The notes under the pieces are model-generated. The model had not been told where the DNA came from, did not search any database, and saw only the letters and a list, made by a program, of their open reading frames with translations. The position numbers and the translations under genes are program-made. Below are positions 30 through 46,459 of a DNA stretch of 64,000 bases, piece after piece (within the stretch, counting starts at the first letter, position 1; every line of letters starts with the position of its first letter). Source of the stretch: Umbilicaria muhlenbergii. Its lineage: Eukaryota > Ascomycota > Lecanoromycetes > Umbilicariales > Umbilicariaceae. The stretch spans positions 1,564,147-1,628,146 of the forward strand of contig KK106986.1 of NCBI GenBank assembly GCA_000611775.1. Reading direction: 5' to 3'.

Positions 30-3000
30 ATGGTAGTATTGGATGCAGAGGCCGCTTTCTTAAGCTCGATGCAAGATGCGAAAAATGCGCAAGGGAGTTA
101 CGAACCCACTGGTGCAGATAATGAACAGCAGGCAGACTCTTCCGCCGAAGAAGAATACGATCCGTCGCAAGCCCTGCAAGATGTTTCCTCTAGCTTCCAT
201 ACGACCTATACCTCAGTTCCTCCCTCATCTACGCATGCGCTAGTAAATGAAACGGAGCAGTCCACTTCAGCGTCAGCGAACAACCCTATGAATTCTCCGG
301 TCATGCCAACCACCTCTGGTCCCCGGCTGTCAACTCCATCGATTTTTAAAACCATGAACCCATCCAGATCAGCGTCAAGGGCTTCCGTGCAGTCTACTAA
401 CCAGGCTATGCCCAATATGCCTCAAACCAATGGCGGCTCTGTGCGTTTTGATGCTGAGGCGGGCGAGCAAGCGACGAAATCCAGTGCTAATGGCGTGGTG
501 CAAATGGGTGGAGATAACGTGGGCTCAGTACAACGTTCAATTTCACATACCCCTATCAGTCAGTTGTCTACAGATGTATCAATACCAAATGCTGCACAAG
601 ATAAAGGCGCTTCTGGTGTTCTCCAAAATGGCGTTGCTGATACTGTCCCTAACTTTGCTACCGTTGTACCTGACACTGGTGCTGCGGCTCACGAGACCAC
701 TACCGATCAACCTAGTCAGACGCTCCCAGCTTCACAGGCCAACGTGCCTCAGGCTTCTACTGCTGAATCAATCACCACCCCTATCTCGGCAGCCCCAAGA
801 GCCCGTCTGCCCCATGACAGGATTGGGATACTGGAGGATAGGATCAAGGACGACCCGAGAGGCGATATGGACGCTTGGCTCAGTTTGATTAATGAGCACA
901 AGCGGCGTAGCAAATTGGACGATGCCCGTCAGGTGTACGAACGATTTTTTGTCGTCTTTCCGTCTGCAGTAAGTGCTCGATCTCCCTATCTATGCAGGAG
1001 ATGGTGAATACTAACGCTGTGTAGGCTGAGCAATGGATTGCATACGCACAAATGGAGAACGACGCGCAGAACCGTTTGCTAATGGAACATATTTTCAACA
1101 AAACTCTGCTTCACATACCCAACGTGCAGTTGTGGGCCTTGTATCTCGGCCATGTTCGCCGGCATAACAACCTTACTACCGATACCTCCGGTGCTGCTCG
1201 TCAGATTATTTCCCAAGCCTATGACCTGGCGCTGCAGCATATCGGCATCGACAAGGACTCCGGAAATATATGGCAAGACTATGTGCAATTCATTCGGTCC
1301 GGCCCTGGTATGATCGGTGGCAGTAATTGGCAAGATCAGCAGAAGATGGACTTGCTTCGCAAAACATACCAGCGTGCTAGTTGTATACCAACGCAAACTG
1401 TCCACACGCTTTGGAAAGAGTATGATGGGTTCGAAATGGGCCTAAACAAGATGACGGTACGATCCTGCGTGCTTTTACATATCATCTGATCGCTAATAGA
1501 TTTGTAGGGTCGAAAATTCCTCCAGGATCAGTCACCGGCTTACATGTCAGCACGTAGCTCGTACACTGAGCTGCAAAACATAACGCGCGAGCTACGTCGT
1601 ACCACCTTGCCTGTCTTACCTCCAGCACTTGGTTTCGATGGTGATATGGACTACATGAAGCAGCTAGATATTTGGAAGCGGTGGATTCAATGGGAGAAGG
1701 ATGATCCTTTGGTGCTGAAGCAGGACGATGTAGCTGCATATAGAGATCGAGTTGTCTTCGTTTACAAGCAAGCGCTAATGGCTATGCGTTTCTGGCCCGA
1801 GATGTGGTTTGATGCTGCTGAGTTTTGTTTCCAGAATAACCTAGAGACCGAAGGGAACGACTTCCTCACACAAGGCATTGCCGCAAATCCCGAGAGCTGC
1901 TTACTGGCTTTTAAGCGTGCAGATCGTCTCGAATTGACAACGTCGAATGAAGAAGGTGACGAAAGTGCCATACGACGTGGTGCGGCAGTCCGAGAGCCAT
2001 ATGACAAAGTTCTTGATGCTTTGTACGATCTAATTGCCAAGGTCAAAACCCGCGAAGGGCATGATCTGGCTCGTATTGAGGCGCAAACCGTCAATAGCAA
2101 CGACAGTCAGCTCGAGGGTAACAAAATGGATGACGAGGAAGCAGAAAACAATGAGGACGAGGTCAACAATATTGAGAAGAGAAAGAAAGCACAAATTGAA
2201 GCTGTGAAAAACGTCAATGCTGTCCAAATACGTTTACTCTCAAAGACCGTGTCCTACGCCTGGATTGCGCTAATGCGTGCTTTACGTCGAATCCAAGGAA
2301 AAGGCAAGGTCAACTCTCCCATTGGAGGCTCACGACAGGTCTTTACCGATGCTCGAAAGAGAGGCCGGATCACTAGCGATGTCTACGTTGCTAACGCGTT
2401 GATCGAGTTTCATTGCTACGATCCCGAAGCGACTAAGAAGATATTCGAGCGTGGCTTGAAGCTCTTCCCGGAAGACGAGAGCTTTGCACTGGAGTACATA
2501 AAACATCTTATTGCAACCAATGACCTTACCAGTGAGTGTCAGTGCTAGCTGATGTTGTCCAGATGCTAATCATTCTCCTAGATGCAAGGGTGGTTTTCGA
2601 GACTGCTGTAAATAAATTGGCACAGAAGCCAGAGACTGTAGCTAGAGCAAAGCCCATCTATGCGTTTTTCCATGATTTCGAGTCTCGCTACGGAGAGCTA
2701 AGTCAAATTACGAAGCTAGAAAAACGCATGAGAGACCTCTTCCCCGAAGATCCTATGCTCACGTTGTTTTCACGTCGTTTCATTCAACAAGGGTTTGACC
2801 CGACGGCGATCCGACCTATTATCTCGCCAGCTACACAGGCCAGGCCACGGGCGATCCCAAGCATCGAGAATCCACCTTCCGCACACAATACTCCTCCCAG
2901 TCGGTTCGCCCAGACTACAAACTCCCCTAAACGCCCTATGCCGTTCGAAGACCCAGACCCTGAGGCCGCCCGTCCTAGGAAACTTGCCCGTGGAGAGTCG

Positions 3001-3639
3001 CCGCTCAAAGGCGCAGCTGGCCGACGACTTGATCAGCAGAAGCGGAACCGCCAACCAAATGAACTGTCACAATATGATGGCTTGGCGCAATCCCAACCGC
3101 CACCCCCGCCACTTCTTCCTCGTGATGTGTTATTCCTTCTCAGTATCATTCCGAAGGCCGAAACTTACCACGCCACGAGGTTTAAGCCGGAAGAGATGGT
3201 CAGGCTTATTCGAGAGACGGAAATTCCCAGTACAGTAGCACAACTTAGACCGCCACCTGGGGGAGTTGGTATGCCCCCAACGCATCAGATGCCTCAGATG
3301 CCTCAAGGTCACTACAATGGTGGGTGTTCCATGTCTCGTTCTTTGATCCACTACCCTACGGATCCATACGCTTCTGAGGGCCATCACATCAATGGTGTGT
3401 CCCGCGAAGCTTGTAACGATCTCCCAAAACCAAAGCGCCGCAAGAAGAGATCTGCCAAGCGTAACACGCGTCGTCAAACCCATCATCACGACCGGGAGAT
3501 TCTTGGTCTTCCCCACGTTAATGAGGAACAGACAAGCAGGCCGTCCTCGCAAATACCGCGTGCTTTAAGGCACATCAACCTCTTATCGTCAATCTCTCCC
3601 GATGACGTGGCTGCTATGATTAAGCAGCACGAGGGATAG
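30..3639 (+). CDS. RNA14: mRNA 3'-end-processing protein RNA14
   Basis: RNA14 is a subunit of cleavage factor IA, the nuclear complex that cleaves and polyadenylates pre-mRNA; it is the scaffold that binds RNA15 and PCF11. Four exons join in frame: 30-968, 1025-1456, 1508-2531 and 2582-3639, giving 1150 residues. The first 260 or so residues are a low-complexity Ser/Thr/Gln-rich region. HAT (half-TPR) repeats follow, with typical text such as AWLSLINEHKRR and ARQVYERFFVVFP. An acidic insert (EAENNEDE) precedes the second HAT block. The C-terminal third is Pro-rich with a basic patch (KPKRRKKR). All introns are GT-AG. The ATG at 30 has an in-frame stop at 9-11 upstream, but the window edge means an extra 5' exon cannot be excluded. 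Family assignment is strong; the exact start is moderate. Confidence 0.9.
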
Positions 3640-4584
3640 CCGTTTCTGCTCCTTCGAATTTTTTCTTTTTCTATTCTGGTTCATGATCGTTAACATCTAT
3701 GCAGGACAATACTCTTTCAACCGATGATTATTTGAGGTCTGGCTTGACACTCCAAAGCAACGTCGAGCTTTTCCTTCTCAGACTGTCTACTAAGCCCAGA
3801 TTACATACTGTGGAGTTTTGCAGCAGCTGGCATTGGCGATTGTACATTAAGGAGTCGATGGACGTCATTTAATCTTACTACGCTCCGCTAGGAGCGCTTT
3901 TCTACATGGACTTGCATCGGCACATTGGAGTTTTGGGCAGCTTTCTCAATCTCTGCGTTTTGATTTCTACAAAATGCATGGAAAGGAAGCGCTACAATGT
4001 CTTGCAGGGAGCAGCGGCCGGAGCGTGACATAATGGTCGTGTCGGTATTAACATGGTATTTCAATTTGAATACAGTTTACCGTCTCATGCTTCCAAATCA
4101 CCTTGGTTGCTTTTACATAGGCATATAACCGTAGTCAGTTACAGCTCACTGGGAATTGAACAAAGGAAGTAATCTGATTGGAGATTGTCTTTACTCCTAT
4201 ATAGATCCACGGGCTCACGTACTAGACTTCTTGACAGTCGCCACTAAGCCTGGGCACACACATCCATGCGTGTGACAAAAGGGATCATGTGTCGGTGCCA
4301 AAGTCCAATCAGATCAGGGCCAGGGCTCGCTTCGATGCATGATATGCCGCTAGAGCTGAAATAGTTAGTGAAGCGAAGGTCTATCAAACGCTCCGTTTGT
4401 GCTCCGTACCTTACCTATGTTGCCTAATGATAAGCATGACCAGCCGTAGAAAGAAGGCAACGTTATGCGTGACAGAGGCTCACCTTTGAGACTGTGAAGT
4501 GTTGAAACAGAGCGCCGAGCCAATCGGAACCCGCCTTACTCTGACCATTACTGCGTTGCCCGGCGAAGAGTTCCCCCCTCCCGT
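3640..4584. other. intergenic, 3' flank of RNA14
   Basis: No convincing reading frame, splice pattern or RNA gene is visible on either strand. It holds the RNA14 3' UTR and distal sequence upstream of the Argonaute gene. Confidence 0.6.
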
Positions 4585-5545
4585 TTGTTATTGAGCCCAC
4601 CTGAGTGGATCTTCCCACTTTCTTCTTTCTCCTTTCCGTCCTCTACCTCATCATCGCGTCTCCCATCCAACTCCACTTGGATGATCAATCGTACCTCTTC
4701 TTTGCTGTGTCTCCCTTGTGGGGATCTCTTCCGTTCATCATCTCACTTCATCATCCATGTGACACCCATCTTCTTGCCCTTATCATTGACAGCAAGCAGT
4801 TTGAGGTCACCTCATCTGACTCCGCATTGACAATCGTCTCACAGTACAAGCTCCCACCACAACACACCGTCTGCGAGGCTTGAAAGCTCAGTGTTAAGCT
4901 ACGTCGAAGCTCAACAACACCGTAAGTACTGCCTGAAATAACCATCCTCCCTCTGCTCAAACCTCTTCTGCAACCTCCTATTCCATGCAACCTCCGGTTT
5001 TACACTTTCATATCTCTAACAAACTCCACCTCGTACGTCCACCTCATCTCACCGTTCCACAATCACTTCATGTACCGATCTTCTACATCCTCCTACCTTC
5101 CAATCTTCCAACCTTCCACATCTTTCAGCCTCCTTCGCACCTAGATCTTGTTCAGCTCATCTCTTCATGATCTCCCAACCTCATACATCCACCACGCGTC
5201 ACGAGTGTCAAACCTCCGACTTTTCCAATCTCCCACACCAATCAACTCTCTGCTTCCTTCCCCCCCTATCAATCTTGGTCCCATTAGTCTTCTTACTCCG
5301 TGTTATCTCCACCTCTTGTAGCTACTTGATCTCCATCTAGCAAGCTCATTACTCTCACAGATCCCCACACGCTTCAGCTCTTTGGTATCTTCTTCCACCT
5401 CATCTCATCATCCATTTCATCGTTTTCTGTTGTGGCATCCACCTTCTCGTGGCTTCGATCCATGTATTTAGCAGCCTCAACTAAAATTCCATAGCAACCA
5501 CGTCAAGCGAGCCTCTAACACACTTATCAAACAAATACCGTCGAC
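4585..5545 (+). promoter_or_regulatory. pyrimidine-rich leader of the Argonaute gene
   Basis: This kilobase is strongly C/T-rich on the plus strand and directly precedes the Argonaute ATG at 5546. Such tracts are common in promoters and 5' UTRs of filamentous fungi. A consensus donor (GTAAGT) lies at 4922, so an intron in the 5' UTR is possible. The short open frames here are C/T-rich filler with no recognisable protein. Confidence 0.5.
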
Positions 5546-8500
5546 ATGCCTGGCGCTGCAAAGAAGCGTGCAAAGCAGGACCGGCAGGCCGCGCTAGCCT
5601 CCTCAGGCTCTGACGAGGGCTCTACGCAAGCCTCTGAGACAGTTGGTGACCCTGTGTCCACCGAAAGCTACGATGGACCGTCCGATGTCACGGGGCCTGT
5701 CCTCCGGGACCCAGCTCGTGAGCCGGTGCTGGTGACCTCGCTCAATCGTAATATCGATTTGCCTGGTATGGCATACAATCTAGACCGTCAAGTGAGTTCC
5801 AGCAACGATCTGCCTTTCATTTAAGAAGCTTCTCTTGCCGTCTTCCTAGTGTTGCTCCTTCTTTGCTTATTCCAAGCCTTCCATCCGATCATTCGATCCA
5901 ACTGCTTACGATCCCAACCTGTCCAATCATTCATTGCTTTCAACACACAACCTGCAGCACTACTTTCATCCATATCCTTATTCACGGCAGGGCTTCACGT
6001 CTGTATTCCTGCCTTTGTATTCACAGCCCCACCACTTTACCCGGCTTCATCCAAGGGTATAAGTAAAAATCATCATAGAGGACCATTCTTCCTACACACC
6101 ACCTTCTACATACCCTTGTCTTCCTTCTTTGCTCTCTTCTCTTGCCCTTCTTCCTTGGCAGAACCAACATTGGCACAGTACACATCACCAGTGATAATAC
6201 ATCCGTTGCTCATCCAATTGGATAAAACTTGGCCATCATCAACCCAGTTCGTGCACTTACCCACTCTTATTGCCTTCTGATTTGTTGGTTCCCTTCCATC
6301 TCTACCTAACCCATCTGTTACCTGATATCTGTGTACTTCTTTCGAAATGGAGATCGCAACATTTAGGCACTGGAATCCCCAAACTGATCAAGTGCAGTAC
6401 GAGATTCCCGCCGAACTTGTTCGTCGTCCCAAACAGTTCAACTCCTCTGGCAAGGGCATTATCGTTGGGATCAACTCGTATCCAATCACACAATTCCCAA
6501 CACAAACTGTGTACCAGTACGATGTGAGTTGTACTAACGCTAGAATGGGCTGCACAAAAACCATTACCCTTGGCTTCCACCCCCGTATCTGTGTTAGCGG
6601 ACTAACTATAATTCCTAGGTTCATATCGGCACCGGAGTCGAGAAGCGTGGCCTGATCAGCGCTGTCTGGGCATCCAAGGCGGTCAAGAAGGCTCTTGGAA
6701 TCGGTTGGATTTTCGATGGCAATAAGATCGCTTGGTGCGCTTCCGCAGCACCATGAGGGATACAGCATATCCACTGACACCGTTACAGGGCCCAGAAAGA
6801 GGTAAAGCAGGAGGTGAGGGTCACTGTGGATCTCGATGTCGAGAAGGGTTTGGTTGCCCGCCTGGATCACCCAAACACTCACAAGGTCACCATTCGTATG
6901 ACAAACGCGGTCAATCTGGCAGCGGTGCAAGCCTACCTCGATGGAAAGATGAGTTTTGACAATTCTGTGCTCGAAGCCATCAGTGAGACATGAATGAATT
7001 TGGTCCCTACGTATCGTCACTCTAACTCTGATCAGATTTTCTCGACCATCTCCTCCGCGAGATCCCAAGCAAAAAACTCATTGCGGTAAAGCGCTCGTTC
7101 TTTGCTCGTGAGAACGATCGTCGCGTTCTCCTAGGTGGTGGTGTCGAAGCCATGAAAGGCGTGTACCAATCGATCCGTGCTGCTCATGTAAGTTTTAGTA
7201 GTGTTACTTTGCATTGACTATACTTACTCAATTCTCAAGGGTGCCCATTTGGTGGTCAACGTCGACGTCTCAAACACCACCTTCTGGTCCGAGGCCCCGC
7301 TGCACATCCTCGCCGTCCAAGTCACTAGGACTGCCAGTGCCGATGATCTCGTGCACAAATGCAAGAAAGTTGCGAAGAGTTCCGGACTGGAGCCGGTCGA
7401 GTCCCCAGCGTTTAAGGACCTGCGAAAGCTTAAGAAGAACAAAGTCTGGGCCGTGCACCGTCCCGGAGAGCGTAAGTCGATACGATTGCAACCCACATAG
7501 TTGACGGAATACTAAATCCGTTGCAGGCGAGAAGCTGTACACTATCAAGGGTTTCAGCCAGCTGACTGCTAGGTCGTACAAGTTCAAATGCTTCATCAAG
7601 GCCACGAACCAAGAGGAGGAAATCACCATTGAACAATACTTCAAGCGTCGATACAACGTGACCCTTCAGTGGCCGGATCTTCCACTTGTCGAGACGATGA
7701 AGAAAGGCGTTCTTCTCCCAATGGAAGTTCTCGTCGTCGCTCCAGCTCAGCGCTACCCGTACAAGCTTGATGACAAACAGGCAAGTGACATTCTTGATTG
7801 TCATGATACGGAGTGATCTGCTAACATCATGCAGACTGCAAACATGATCAAATTCGCCGTGACGAAGCCTGCGGACCGGTTGTCATCGATCGAGTATGGG
7901 CTTAAGATGCTTGACTGGCAGGGTGATCCAGCTTTCAAGCACTACGGGCTTAAGGTTCAGGGAAGTATGCTCAAGACCAATGCTCGCCTACTTGCCAATC
8001 CTCAAGTCGAATTTGGCGCCAAGAACACGGTCAATCCTGGTGTTTCTGGTCGTTGGGACCTCAAGGGGAAGAAGTTCTTAATCCCAGGAGCTTCGAGCGA
8101 CAAGCCGCTCAAATCGTGGGGGGTTTGTGTCATGAACAACGGGTATGTCTACATTCTTTCAATGGGAAAACTGTATTGACAATGACTAGTATGAATAAGA
8201 TCGACGTGCCGACCGCGCAGAACTTCGTTCGCAATCTCATTGCCGCCTATCAAGCTCATGGCGGTACTGTGGTGAACAAAACCCCTCCGATTATCGGTGG
8301 GATTGATGATGCTGCTGCAGCTGTCGAATCGGTCTTCAATGCAGCGGGGAATCAATGTTTGTCGTCGTACTTCCAATTTCTTACACGAGGCTAATACGGC
8401 GCACAGCCACCATGAGGCCACAGATATTGATCTTCATGCTACCTGAGAAGGCTGCCTTCCAGTACTTGCGCATCAAGAAGTCGTCCGATTGTCGCTACGG

Positions 8501-9651: not shown

Positions 9652-10612
9652 CATCTGGTACACCGATCTCGGTCAAGCAGTTGCAAGCAAATTGGGGCTT
9701 ACGAGACACTTGCTTCACGCAGTTATTTGTCTCATTCTGGCATTCTTCTACAGCATGATGAGCTGTTTAGTCTGTCTCTCACTTGCGGCAGTTGTGCCCC
9801 TTCACCTTGCGAATGCGCCAGAGATTTCAAGTCTTTCGGCTTGGCGAACTGCCTTTGCTTTTGCTCTGTGATGCCTTCCAGCTCATGTATCATATTCGTC
9901 TCACTTCTCCTTTCGTCATTGGTTGTTGTACACCACCCAACTTCCCTCTAAGACAGATTGGCAGAGAAGGGACAGATATGTTCATGGCGCCAGTTTTTCT
10001 ACTCTCCCAGGACGGCAACCCAAACCTAGCTCTTGCTAACGTTTGGCTGTCTGTTCAATAGATACAGTAGGCTGTGGAAGAGCTCATAGTGGTTCATGCG
10101 GATAAACAATTCTGGTTTTGCAGGAAAAGATAGCATAGCTTCACCAGAAAATCACAGGCTTCTTTTCCAAAACGTCGCTGTGCAAGAATTAGCGATGTGG
10201 GGTTGACACCGCAGAGTAGATCCCTCATAGATTCGATTACTACAGCCTGGATGCGCTCTCTTCCACCGTGACCAGTAGCCCAACAACAAAAAGGCCACAT
10301 AAGAGTGGCAAGTTTCCAGCATCCCCACTTCCGGCGACGTAAAAAGTATAGCGGCTTTTCAACGTAGGAATGAAGATGATGCCTCCTGGATTATCACGTC
10401 TACGGTGAGTTCCATTTGTCACATGATAACGTATGTACGTTTTACTCCGCTATCCTAATGTGTGCTACTCGGCGGAATCGACTCCGATTGCGGTAATCCT
10501 GACAAGCAGACAGTAGTCACTGATCCCTGCTCAAGCCCACGACAAGTACACAATCGCCACCGGGCCTGTTTATGCCACCAATACGCAATCGCTCGAGACT
10601 CAACTTTCCGCT
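9652..10612. other. intergenic, 3' of Argonaute
   Basis: Argonaute 3' UTR and spacer. Short open frames on both strands lack homology I recognise, and none shows a signal peptide with a sensible splice pattern. Confidence 0.5.
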
Positions 10613-28312: not shown

Positions 28313-29550
28313 ATGAAGGCGGTTACTACTCTGATCACGGTGTTGTTCGTGGCTTGCACCAACCTTGATGTGGTCTTCTCTGCTCCAGTCTATGTGAGCA
28401 AATCCTTCTTCTTGTACCATACACTCAGGCTCGCGTACTCACATCTCACAGTCTATCAATTCTATCGCCGACTCCCCCGTTATTGCCTCGGACATCAAGC
28501 GTGCAGATGTGAGTCAACAGCTTGCGGCCTAAATCCAGCTTAGATTTCTAACACAAGCATTGTACTGACATCATTCCAGGCATTGGTGGATGCTTATGCT
28601 CCCGCTGGCGCCGTTGATGGCCAGCCTCCTGGAGTGGTACCGATAAAGCGTGACGCCGTGTTGGTTGAGAAGTCGGACGAGCTTGAAGACTGTGCCGCTC
28701 CATGCGACTTCTACATCCGTCGATCTATTACTACCGAGGTGAGCTCTTTCATCAACATAACTAGCCTGTCTGCCATGCTTTGCACACAACCATGCTGATC
28801 TGTTGCCAGGACACATCATCGCCAGCCTACGCAGTACCAGGCACGGTCTTGCCAATACTCCCTCGCGAAGTCGTCCCGGTTGAACAATATCAGTCTGTTG
28901 GTGGTGGAGCACTCAAGCCTAAGCGTGGCGTCGAAGTGAGTACCTCGCGCGTACTGCGTTGGCTTAGGGCTTGGGAATGCTAAAGCGCTTTAGGGTACCC
29001 TCGCCGATGCTACGAGCTATTACTGGCCAGCAGGTTTCAAAGGCCCGAGATCCAAGCGTGCCGTCGAAGTGAGTACCACACATTTACTGCACTGTCTTGA
29101 GGCTTGAGAATGCTAAAACACCTCAGGGTACGCTCGCCGAGGCTACTAACTCTTCAGAAGTGCGGCCAGGCTTCACGGGCCCCAGATCCAAGCGTTCTGC
29201 GGTAAAACTAGCTTTGCAGCACTCTCGCTCGCCGAAAGTATGCTGACACAAACTGCTATAGGTCAAAGTCCATCTGAGTCCAGCTTCTGGTGGCTATGTC
29301 TCTGGCGCTCCTAAGCGTTCTGAAGTATGTGGTTTCCTTCTCAATACTGTCGCGCACCGCAAACTTGCTGAAAATGTCCCCAGGCCAAAGTTCCCCTCGA
29401 TCCAGCCTCTGGTGGCTATGCTTCCGGCGCGCCCAAGGGCTCCGAGGTCAGTCCAGTACAGTTGCCATACTACTTCCCATCAACATCATACCGATTATGC
29501 ATGTTGTGTTATAGCTTAATACTGATTTGCTGCAACAGGTCGACCACTAG
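28313..29550 (+). CDS. Secreted Kex2-processed repeat precursor, nine phase-0 exons
   Basis: Nine exons: 28313-28393, 28452-28508, 28580-28738, 28810-28935, 28994-29068, 29127-29201, 29262-29324, 29384-29446 and 29539-29550. They join to 236 residues, and every intron falls between codons (phase 0). Exon 1 encodes a signal peptide ending near VVFSA|PVY. Lys-Arg pairs, the site of the Golgi protease Kex2, lie at residues 43-44, 69-70, 137-138, 162-163, 188-189 and 209-210; an Arg-Arg is at 93-94. Exons 5 and 6 are related (GTLADAT ... GFKGPRSKR and GTLAEATN ... GFTGPRSKR), as are exons 7 and 8 (SPASGGYVSGAPKR and DPASGGYASGAPKG). Cleavage would release peptides of about 23, 24, 19 and 26 residues from the C-terminal half. 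It is not a known alpha-pheromone type, and no RiPP-modifying enzyme lies nearby. Function is unknown. Confidence 0.82.
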
Positions 29551-42291: not shown

Positions 42292-42774
42292 CCGACCCAC
42301 CATCCGCTCTCCCACCACAACGACCGCTCCTTCGCATGCTGCCCCTCGCCAAACATGCCCGCAACGCTCAATTAAGGTAAGGTAGTGAATGAGCACCCAC
42401 TTCTAGCGAGTTTTCGGCCCTCCCTGTTGCACAAGCCCGCTATCAGTCGCATCCCACTGCGCATACGTCGAAACATCGTGGCTCCATACTCGACGGCGGA
42501 CCCGACCACGCTCGACGACGTTGAGAAGTATACTACAAAGAATCGAATCGTGCACACCGTGCACACCGTGAACCGTCGGGACGCAGCTTCGCTGCGAGTC
42601 AGCGCCTTTGCACGGGCTAGGCGCAATACTCGGCCGCTCGCGTTATAGGCTGTCCGAGACTGGAACGACCCAACGGCCTCGGACGATGTCATTCGTGGCA
42701 AAGACGCAAAAACGAAGTGATCTGATCGCGAGTCGTTGGAAGTATTCAGAGGGCTATCGTACTCCGGAGTCGCA

Positions 42775-45700
42775 ATGAATCAGGCTAACGTCGGCAACAT
42801 GAACGGAATATATGGCAAGACCTACTCCGCGGATGACCTGCAGCGACTGACGGAGATCAACAACCGCGATACGATGATGAGTATGATGACCTCGGATGGC
42901 ATGGATGCTGCTGGCATGATTGGTGGACAGACACTGGACGAAATCATCAGTCAAAATCATAAAGAGATACAGCGGAGGAGGAGTTATCAACAATCGCAGT
43001 CGTACAGGTCCAATGGGCAGGGTCCAGAAGCCGATCCGAGGAGGGCTTCGATGATGGAGTTTGGCCCTGGGCCACCAAACGACTTGGACAGCTTTCAATT
43101 CGAACCCTCGTCCGCCCATGTCAGCAGTCCTCTGGTCCGTGCGGGCAGCATTGCACAGAGAAGAATGGATAGCCAGCGACAAAGGCGACGAGAATCGGCG
43201 GAGAACATCGTCATGAATACACATTTCCAAAACATAGGGCAGACCTATCCGCCCATACCGCAATCCTCCCCATACCAGCAACCTCTCAACCCTTCCAGAT
43301 CCCTCAACCTCGATGTAGCGGGGACCTACCTACCCTCAAACTTATCCATGGGCATGGACTTTGCTACCGGCAACCTGCAACAAGATCCCAGTAACGATGT
43401 CGCACCTATGAACATGTTCTCCCAGGGCAGCTTCCAACCGAATTTAACGTCTTCACCCATCCATCAAACTTTCTCAAACTCCCTCCCAGGTCCGGTGCAG
43501 GACCCGGGCGGGGGAAATACGGGAGGGCGCGAGGAGCAAGATATGATGGACAAGTTACCAGATATGCAGATGTCGGACCGTGTCCAAAACATGCAGAGGA
43601 GTCTCACGCATCCGCCTATGACGCTGTCGAACCCAAACACAGCCGGCCCAGTTCATGCCATGCCAGACTATGATATTCCATCGGAGCCTCAGCAAAGGGG
43701 CGGTCTGCCTGTCGTCATAGAAACCTCGAGAATGACATTTTCTACTGGCGATGCACTGCCAGGCACGGTCGTGCAACCATCAATACCACAGTACCGTAAT
43801 GCATATTCGTCTAGTGGGTTCGACATGCTTGGAGTCCTTATGCGCGTTGCTGCTCGACCGAAGCCGCAGATCAACATAGGGGCTGTCGACATGTCCTGTG
43901 CTTTTGTCGTATGCGACGTCTCCCAGCATGACATTCCAATAGTATATTGCTCAGATATCTTCGAGCGGCTTACAGGCTATTCGAAGCATGAAATATTGGG
44001 CAGAAACTGCCGGTTCCTACAGGCGCCGGATGGCAAAGTACAACCAGGCATCAAGCGCAAATACGTGGACGATCAGGCCGTTTTACACCTCAAGAACATG
44101 ATTAGTCAACGGCAAGAAGCGCAGATCAGCCTCATTAATTATCGCAAGGGAGGCCAGCCGTTCATGAATTTGCTTACTATGATACCCATCACCTGGGACA
44201 GCGACGAAATTAGGTACTTCGTCGGATTCCAGGTAGACCTTGTTGAACAGCCAACGTCGATCACGAACAAGAATCCCGGTGAGTCTGCACGATTGATACC
44301 CTATAGGCATCTGTCGCTGACCAGAGATTAGATGGCTCCTATGCCATCAATTACCAGCGTGGTATGCTGCCCAGATACGTTTTCCAAACACCAGAAAACC
44401 ACAATCCTCAGAGCACCGAAATGGGTCAGACGATTGGCAGAGATGAGGTCTCGACGGTGCTCAGCACGATTGGCACCGGTGAGTCGGAGCTATCTAAGCG
44501 TATTTGGGATAAGGTTCTCCTCGAAAACACCGATGATGTGGTCCATGTGCTGTCCTTGAAGGGCCTATTTCTCTATTTGTCGCCTTCGAGTCGGAAGGTA
44601 CTCGAATACGACCCCAGTGAGCTTGTCGGCACAGCATTATCGTCTGTCTGTCATCCGAGCGACATTGTGCCGGTAACGCGAGAGCTCAAGGACACTTCCA
44701 CCGGTGCCGCGGTAAATGTTGTTTTTCGAATACGAAGAAAATGCAGCGGCTATACCTGGTTCGAAAGTCATGGTTCACTCCATACAGAACAAGGCAAAGG
44801 TCGGAAGTGCATCATCCTCGTGGGTCGCGAAAGGCCAGTTTACGCTCTAGCACGAAGTGATATTATCTCTGCCGGCGGAATTGGTGAAAGCGAGCTATGG
44901 ACCAAGATGTCGACTTCAGGAATGTTTCTGTTTGTGTCCTCAAACGTTAGGAATCTTTTGGATCGACAACCAGAGGAGCTGGTAGGCACTAGCGCTCAAG
45001 CGTTGATGCGAGCAGAGTCGAAATTGGAGTTCGGAAAAATGTTGGAACTGGCACGTACTGGTGTGAGGGCAACGTTCAAACACGATGTACACAACAAGCG
45101 TGGGCAGACACTACAAGCGCAAACAACGATTTATCCAGGTGATGCAAGTGCAGGACAGAAGCCAACATTCTTGGTTGCTCAGACAAGGTTGTTGAAACTG
45201 TCGAGAGCTTTACCTACGGGCAATCGTCAAGGATCCGGCGTATCTGCCAGGACCGATCAAGCCTCTGCAGGCTCTGGCACGCCTTCGACGAACGTCTCTG
45301 GTGGTACTCAGGCCTCCCGGCAAACTGACACGCCTCAATCATCAACTTCTAATACTTACGAGAACGGAGTCCTGACGCAAGCGGGCGGGAGCGGTCTCGC
45401 CATTGGCAACCAGCACGAAGCCCTTGCTTCCGAGGAGAATGTTTTCGATGAACTCAAGACGACAAGAAGCACCAGCTGGCAATTCGAGCTCCGCCAGATG
45501 GAGAAGCGCAACCGACTACTGGCAGAAGAATTGCAAAGCCTTCTCTCATCTAAGAAGAAGCGGAAACGAAGAAAAGGAGCGGGGCAATTACAGAAAGACT
45601 GTGCGAACTGCCACACTCGTGTCACGCCCGAATGGAGACGAGGGCCAAGTGGCAATCGGGATCTCTGCAACAGCTGTGGCTTGAGATGGGCTAAGCAGGT

Positions 45701-46459
45701 AAGGACCCAAGATATGAGAGACGAAGGGCCTTCGCCGTCGCTTTCGCCTTCACCGACTACACCCATATACCAAGAATACTTTGATGCCACCTTGCAACAC
45801 CCTTCCCTACACCACCACAATGACGTTGTACCTCATTTCTCCACAATCTGAGTCGCGTTCTCTCACCGCCATGCCTAGCCCACCCGCGTTGTCGCCGTGG
45901 CTCCTCCACCTGTGCGGTGCTCTACCACGGACACGTTAGTCGTCCTTCTCTGACCACTGTCATGAACTCTTTCATTCATTTGGTTACATTCGTTTGCCTC
46001 CTTCTTTGGTCGTTGTGGGCCCGCTAGCAATGGGTCTCTGATGACGAGTCTCGCCTGCTGCGCCGTGTGTTCCGCGTTATGACCCAGCCCCGAGCACCGA
46101 CTTGATCAAATCCAATACAGTTGCGATTCGTTTCTTGCAGAACTGGTTTACTGATCCGTGTGTTCGGACAGAACGGACGTGTCTCGCCTCGCGCCTCTTC
46201 TCAGCAGAGTGATAAACACTCGGCAGCCTCCCAAAGCACCTCCTCACCCCGACAGTCTTCACCGCTTGCTACGAACATGGTCATCAACGACTCCACCTTT
46301 CAAACGGAGAAGCGGTCACCCCAAGCCGCTAACGCGGACTCCCATAATGCGAAAACGGCACGCATGGAAGCTGTTTCCTCGCAAGGCTACGGCGGCGGGA
46401 TACCGGCGAAGATTGAGGAAGGCGACGAACCGAGTGAAGTGGCACTGGGCAGGAATTAG
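42775..46459 (+). CDS. wc-1: White collar 1 blue-light receptor / GATA transcription factor
   Basis: WC-1 is the FAD-binding photoreceptor that, with WC-2, activates light-responsive and clock genes in the nucleus. Three exons (42775-44278, 44332-45698 and 46172-46459) give 1052 residues. A Gln/Ser/Pro-rich N-terminus precedes the LOV domain with GRNCRFLQ; the photoactive Cys is at 412. Two PAS domains follow (RIWDKVLLENTDDVVHVLSL; GESELWTKMSTSGMFLFVSS). A basic stretch (KKKRKRRKGAGQ) leads into the GATA zinc finger, starting at Cys 925, CANC ... CNSC. The third exon resumes the family text as AKQ|NGRVSPRASSQQS. The last intron is unusually long (473 nt); reading through it gives a different Ser/Pro-rich tail of 51 residues ending at 45851. 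The start at 42775 is the first in-frame ATG. Confidence 0.94.

Follow-up and report, generated by a model that had tools for sequence, protein, structure and literature searches.

Gene structure

A nine-exon gene lies at positions 28313–29550 of the forward strand (+) of the window, the whole 64-kb stretch of Umbilicaria DNA analysed here. Splicing its introns in silico gives a protein of 236 amino acids with no internal stop, and the coordinates and the model of nine exons and eight phase-0 introns put forward in a preliminary description of this DNA proved exact. The introns are all of the GT-AG type, measure 58–92 nt each and lie in phase 0 (8/8), and a CTRA branch-like motif starts 14–19 nt before the intron end in every one but intron 1 (7/8). 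The lengths of all nine exons are divisible by three; each exon is symmetric and could be gained or lost without breaking the frame, as had been claimed. Intron length is not a multiple of three in 7/8 cases, and intron 6 (60 nt) contains in-frame stops, so that intron retention would disrupt the protein, whereas exon loss would not. Alternative splicing of the gene is permitted by the exon frame and is otherwise not supported.

Exon 1 (28313..28393; this and all further exons are on the + strand) encodes the predicted signal peptide, MKAVTTLITVLFVACTNLDVVFSAPVY, recognised by its hydropathy and by an N-terminus that is similar in the related proteins P0001–P0003. The best 11-residue hydropathy mean of the N-terminus is 2.47, compared with 1.52 past residue 30. 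Exon 2 (28452..28508) is a propeptide unit ending in IKR+AD. Exon 3 (28580..28738) holds unit A (QPPGVVPIKR; pattern PGVVPxKR) and the core of unit B, CAAPCDFYIR, followed by a second arginine (RR); this core is also present in a paralogue on contig C5. Exon 4 (28810..28935) is a linker segment ending in PKR+GVE, the bounds of which match those in Hypocenomyce scalaris, where they form the sole two-frame solution. Unit C (YYWPAGFKGPRSKR; pattern WPxGFKGPRSKR) occupies exon 5 (28994..29068; copy 1, SYYWPAGFKGPRSKR+AVE) and, in a diverged copy 2, exon 6 (29127..29201; EVRPGFTGPRSKR+SA). Unit D (pattern PASGGYxSGAPKR) occupies exon 7 (29262..29324; copy 1, PASGGYVSGAPKR+SE) and exon 8 (29384..29446; copy 2, PASGGYASGAPKG+SE), of which the latter lacks a Kex2 site and has KG instead, as is also seen in Lasallia pustulata. 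Exon 9 (29539..29550) encodes VDH and the stop.

Beyond residue 25 the protein has six Lys-Arg (KR) sites and one RR, against a shuffle mean of 0.68 KR; none of 20,000 shuffles reached six. The signal peptide and the six Lys-Arg sites named in the preliminary description are thus borne out by the count and by the hydrophobic N-terminus, the former as a prediction. Five of the six KR sites stand 2–3 residues before an exon end (P ~5e-6 under random placement), although these are not five independent events, because exons 5/6 and 7/8 are duplicates. It had also been said that most exons end in KR plus two or three residues: this holds for exons 2, 4, 5, 6 and 7 (5/9), but exon 3 has its KR in mid-exon and its RR five residues before the exon end, and exon 8 has KG in the place of KR.

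Orthologues and unit turnover

Protein searches with the window protein recovered annotated orthologues in L. pustulata (P0001, 306 aa, E 1.2e-67) and H. scalaris (P0002, 266 aa, E 3.3e-51), which align with 99 and 97% of its length at 46 and 49% identity. These species belong to two families, both within the Umbilicariales. Four relatives came from two protein searches, one of which scored the 8000 candidates with the most shared words. Across three protein searches, covering the families of two queries, the named relatives were from L. pustulata and H. scalaris; since the method needs common five-residue words, the range of the family may be wider than these Umbilicariales relatives.

Two further relatives, P0003 and P0004 (both ENA), are unspliced translations that preserve the places of introns. 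In P0003, introns 1 and 2 together with the exon between them span exactly the 186 nt that intron 1, exon 2 and intron 2 span in the window. It matches the window protein at 21/27 residues of exon 1 and 46/53 of exon 3, and at 13/19 and 17/24 residues of read-through introns 1 and 2. The first 48 residues of P0004 are identical to a stretch of P0002. When the two are read as one gene and introns of 40–130 nt are allowed, there is a single solution, with two introns in phase 0 that measure 76 and 58 nt; these follow IATD and KRAVE, where the window gene has its introns 3 and 4, and 0/30 shuffled exon-4 sequences fit. The relatives thus keep both the KR sites and the phase-0 intron places, an outcome in favour of the preliminary description, which named orthologues lacking both as its refutation.

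P0002 (MMC08_000830) contains an 18-residue insert, VILLPT...KALQ (VILLPTHFAHYGDTKALQ), which is possibly a 54-nt in-frame intron retained in the public annotation. Its residues are compatible with a branch-like motif such as that of window introns 4 and 5.

Exons 5 and 6 are duplicates (shuffle z 10.2), and so are introns 4 and 5 (z 8.7; 43/58 nt identical), so the exon was copied together with its intron. Exons 7 and 8 are also duplicates (z 8.6; pS 0.63, pN 0.13), with introns 6 and 7 weakly alike (z 3.3), and lesser signals of similarity (z 2.5–3.0) link introns 3/7 and exons 4/5, 4/7 and 6/7. Counted by eye in the window gene, L. pustulata and H. scalaris, unit C occurs 2, 3 and 1 times, unit D 2, 1 and 3 times, and unit B 1, 2 and 1 times, the H. 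scalaris copy of B being degenerate. Across these three species KR closes 6/6 C units and 4/6 D units, and the other two D units end in KG (by eye), while the alignment shows the linker segments between units diverging freely. Units C and D were not found outside the window locus among the best candidates of the genome search. Units differ in copy number between orthologues, and exon duplication accounts for part of their gain and loss. The earlier proposal of a modular, kexin-type precursor is upheld, as are the symmetric phase-0 exons, the exon duplication and the differing unit counts among orthologues.

No match to the window protein was found in Pfam, nor to it or the orthologues P0001 and P0002 in NCBIfam, and a profile of the three had no match in the PDB. 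The related protein P0005 has an A20 zinc-finger match of 23.5 bits in which no stretch passes by itself, and we set it aside as repeated Cys copies adding up by chance; all matches of P0001 were below the cutoff.

A second gene and the CAAPCDFYIR core

A search of the whole genome (34,788,950 bases in seven contigs) with the window protein gave 12 matches: seven fell on the window locus, and the other five on C5:2104657-2105304. The latter belong to a paralogue at C5:2104660-2106051 (minus strand), which we modelled as a precursor of 277 aa that is predicted to be secreted and carries CAAPCDFYIR five times without change, interspersed with KR and KK sites. A protein search identified P0005 as its L. 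pustulata orthologue, with P0006 and P0007 as related entries. In the model, two copies of CAAPCDFYIR share one exon and three another, and the intron phases are 1, 1, 1 and 0, so the arrangement of one unit per exon is not a rule of the family. The earlier view of an exon-level origin of the diversity consequently stands for units C and D, which lie one per exon and have been duplicated as exons, and fails for the paralogue, which repeats unit B inside exons. Introns 1 and 2 of the paralogue look alike (a comparison made with no control), and a 387-nt intron in the model may conceal another small exon.

The ten codons of the core, compared over six copies in the two genes (15 pairs, which are not independent), differ by 64.0 synonymous and 0 non-synonymous changes (pS 0.674, pN 0.000). 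For the nine codons upstream of the core in the same copies, pN is 0.346 and pS 0.750. To judge from these codons, selection keeps the CAAPCDFYIR core within this genome, and the contrast with the variable upstream codons makes it the best candidate for an active peptide. Elsewhere the core varies, mainly in its last residues (YVH, YIN and YVT), with CPAPC in P0006 and CSEPCHQDI in H. scalaris. A dibasic site after unit B (RR) occurs in the window gene alone; HR, IR or other residues take its place elsewhere.

Comparison with known precursors

The window gene is probably a secreted kexin-processed multi-peptide precursor (KEP) of lichen-forming Umbilicariales with four kinds of unit per chain. 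Its predicted signal peptide, internal repeats, intervening KR sites (KR closes units C1, C2 and D1), lack of a recognised domain and unassigned function are features that KEPs have according to two surveys (PMC6339444, PMC7329392). The pipeline of one survey took a minimum of three repeats and at least four fragments after KR/RR cutting (PMC6339444). Predicted cutting of the window protein at KR/RR gives eight segments of 21–44 residues, basic pairs counted. Copies of a similar motif number three for unit C in L. pustulata and for unit D in H. scalaris and five for unit B in the paralogue, compared with two each for C and D in the window gene. KEPs are described as near-identical motif repeats, at least three in the survey, whereas the window gene combines four unlike kinds in at most two copies each, a point against our reading. 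It also gives each copy of C and D a phase-0 exon of its own; neither survey text contains the words exon or intron. Multi-peptide prohormones such as pro-opiomelanocortin likewise carry several different peptides per chain, a likeness by analogy alone; the comparison with KEPs is made in PMC7329392.

Other readings of the gene have to be weighed against this one. The exons are short and might be chance open frames of no gene at all, a reading that is scarcely credible: the annotated orthologues refute it in the main, and the unspliced relatives P0003 and P0004 fit the intron places of the window. It is very unlikely that the product serves as a low-complexity structural or cell-wall protein that is secreted and has its KR sites by accident; sequence alone cannot prove cutting, and the linkers diverge freely, but the KR count is far beyond composition and KR closes all C units and most D units in three species. 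Somewhat more has to be said of a divergent family of alpha-type mating pheromones with CAAPCDFYIR as the STE2 ligand, which we consider unlikely. The genome contains a match to the STE2 receptor (350.7 bits, C1:9778946-9779833) and matches to a kexin P-domain (partial) and DPPIV, and the core is identical in six copies. Ascomycete alpha-type precursors resemble our genes in their KR sites, some followed by AD, DA or SA, and in the short two-Cys core found in tandem in the paralogue. A canonical pheromone gene was also not seen by pattern: WCxxxGQxCW has 0 matches in the genome, CxxPGQxC has seven, which in context did not form a KR-flanked tandem in any instance, and WCx5CW has 64 sites, of which 59 were screened in context by script, again with no KR-flanked tandem. 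The five sites left out were C2:3136450, three overlapping ones at C3:2411113-2411151, and C6:49638, some of them simple repeats by eye. On the 59 stretches the script made 67 matches (overlaps recounted), discarded 8 that contained an internal stop, and examined the context where there were at least two basic pairs or a second in-frame WCx5C; the sole frame with two WCx5C was a WCxC simple repeat. MF_alpha_N had no match in the genome, and none in the controls either, which deprives this search of weight. These patterns are narrow, and a true alpha-pheromone gene may have been missed; it is the combination of a STE2 receptor with no canonical pheromone by these patterns that lends a divergent pheromone what probability it has. 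Against it, the core is C-x3-C rather than C-x5-C, has neither the Trp nor the GQ of two-Cys pheromones, lies in mid-segment within longer segments instead of directly before each KR as a tandem WCx3GQxCW-kind core does, and is degenerate in H. scalaris, while the window gene mixes four kinds of unit. The window gene is not a canonical alpha-pheromone.

The preliminary description had offered a link to dikaritins as an option. On this reading, units C or D would be cyclised at Tyr by UstYa enzymes whose genes lie in other parts of the genome. A secreted chain of several KR-separated units is common to dikaritin, ustiloxin and epichloecyclin precursors and to the window protein, which has a predicted N-terminal signal peptide and Tyr in its units (YYWP, GGYVSG). 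Such enzymes do exist in this fungus, with five UstYa matches on contigs C1 and C6, and a survey of lichen RiPPs was unable to identify the precursors of its two cluster clans (PMC12048977). The window and contig C5, which carries the paralogue, are nevertheless both free of UstYa (DUF3328) matches, and the nearest among the best candidates, C6:2203281, is ~610 kb away, which leaves the suggested link with no UstYa match near the gene. Where UstYa genes accompany a precursor, the mean distance is 3.09 genes (PMC7329392). A Pfam scan covered 20 open frames of the window, which has 74 frames of at least 150 aa; the matches near the gene were DNA polymerase epsilon, a mitochondrial carrier and a piece of an MFS protein, with several frames giving no match. 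This content and the UstYa distance argue against a clustered dikaritin, which we reject. Dikaritins have a highly repeated Tyr-bearing core, but here C and D occur in two copies each, and the Tyr of unit C is gone in copy 2 of the window gene and in L. pustulata (FPWP). A dikaritin-type RiPP precursor served by distant enzymes is therefore very improbable.

A dikaritin-like neighbourhood does occur in the stretch C6:2200000-2209999, where two UstYa genes adjoin an M28 peptidase gene (positions 913-7662 of that stretch). No KR-repeat precursor was recognised there by eye among open frames of at least 80 aa. An 8-bp minisatellite lies between the UstYa genes (4658-4755), and a 13-bp array of 23.7 copies (9695-10000) reaches the last position of this stretch, ~25 kb short of where the contig ends.

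Proposed model and significance

As a kexin-processed multi-peptide precursor, the window protein would be taken into the secretory pathway by its signal peptide and cut by kexin past the six KR sites, and probably also past the one RR. The genome has a single, partial match to the kexin P-domain and also encodes a Ste13-kind DPPIV. The basic residues would then be lost to Kex1-type trimming, and certain N-termini (KR-AD, KR-DA, KR-SA) may be shortened by a peptidase similar to Ste13. Unit B, which is common to the second precursor gene with its five copies, is possibly closed by a C-x3-C disulphide, and its peptide may be the main secreted signal, with the other units as lineage-variable companions. 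Units C and D, each copy of which has its own symmetric phase-0 exon, multiplied through exon duplication, for C clearly together with the intron. The peptides might act from one fungal cell on another, or on the algal partner. More speculatively, the Umbilicariales may own a two-gene system of secreted peptide hormones, in which the ten-residue C-x3-C peptide CAAPCDFYIR, under almost absolute constraint, is dosed both by the five-copy gene and by the mosaic gene, the latter releasing it along with other exon-encoded peptides; it could signal in lichen formation or replace the usual alpha-pheromone at STE2. We regard this extension as doubtful.

As far as our literature search shows, the family, the mixing of four unit kinds per chain, the exon cassettes with conserved phase-0 introns and the core shared with a five-copy gene are new. 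In the open-licence literature we found no published description of this gene family and, among the papers listed, none on exon-per-repeat KEPs, and three unit strings were not found in the text of open-licence papers, in keeping with the earlier statement that no gene with these units had been described. A MAP kinase study of this fungus does not mention the terms secreted, pheromone, RNA-seq, STE2, small peptide or effector (PMC10620189). The gene is a clear fungal example of a peptide cassette that has multiplied as an exon together with its intron. To our knowledge, little has been learned about the peptide signals of lichen fungi. KEP genes have been deleted in a mushroom, Coprinopsis cinerea. 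Deletion of six of them gave no apparent phenotype (PMC9769878), which suggests that the function of such peptides may be subtle. Umbilicaria muehlenbergii is transformable (PMC3999499), and its yeast-to-hypha switch, which contact with the alga can trigger, runs via G-protein signalling (PMC12161586). With transformation and an alga-triggered switch at hand, a direct test would be within reach of two gene deletions together with one synthetic peptide.

Elsewhere in the window, at 42721-45851 (+), Pfam matches to PAS and GATA domains extend across two open frames. Together these frames resemble the white-collar-1 light receptor.
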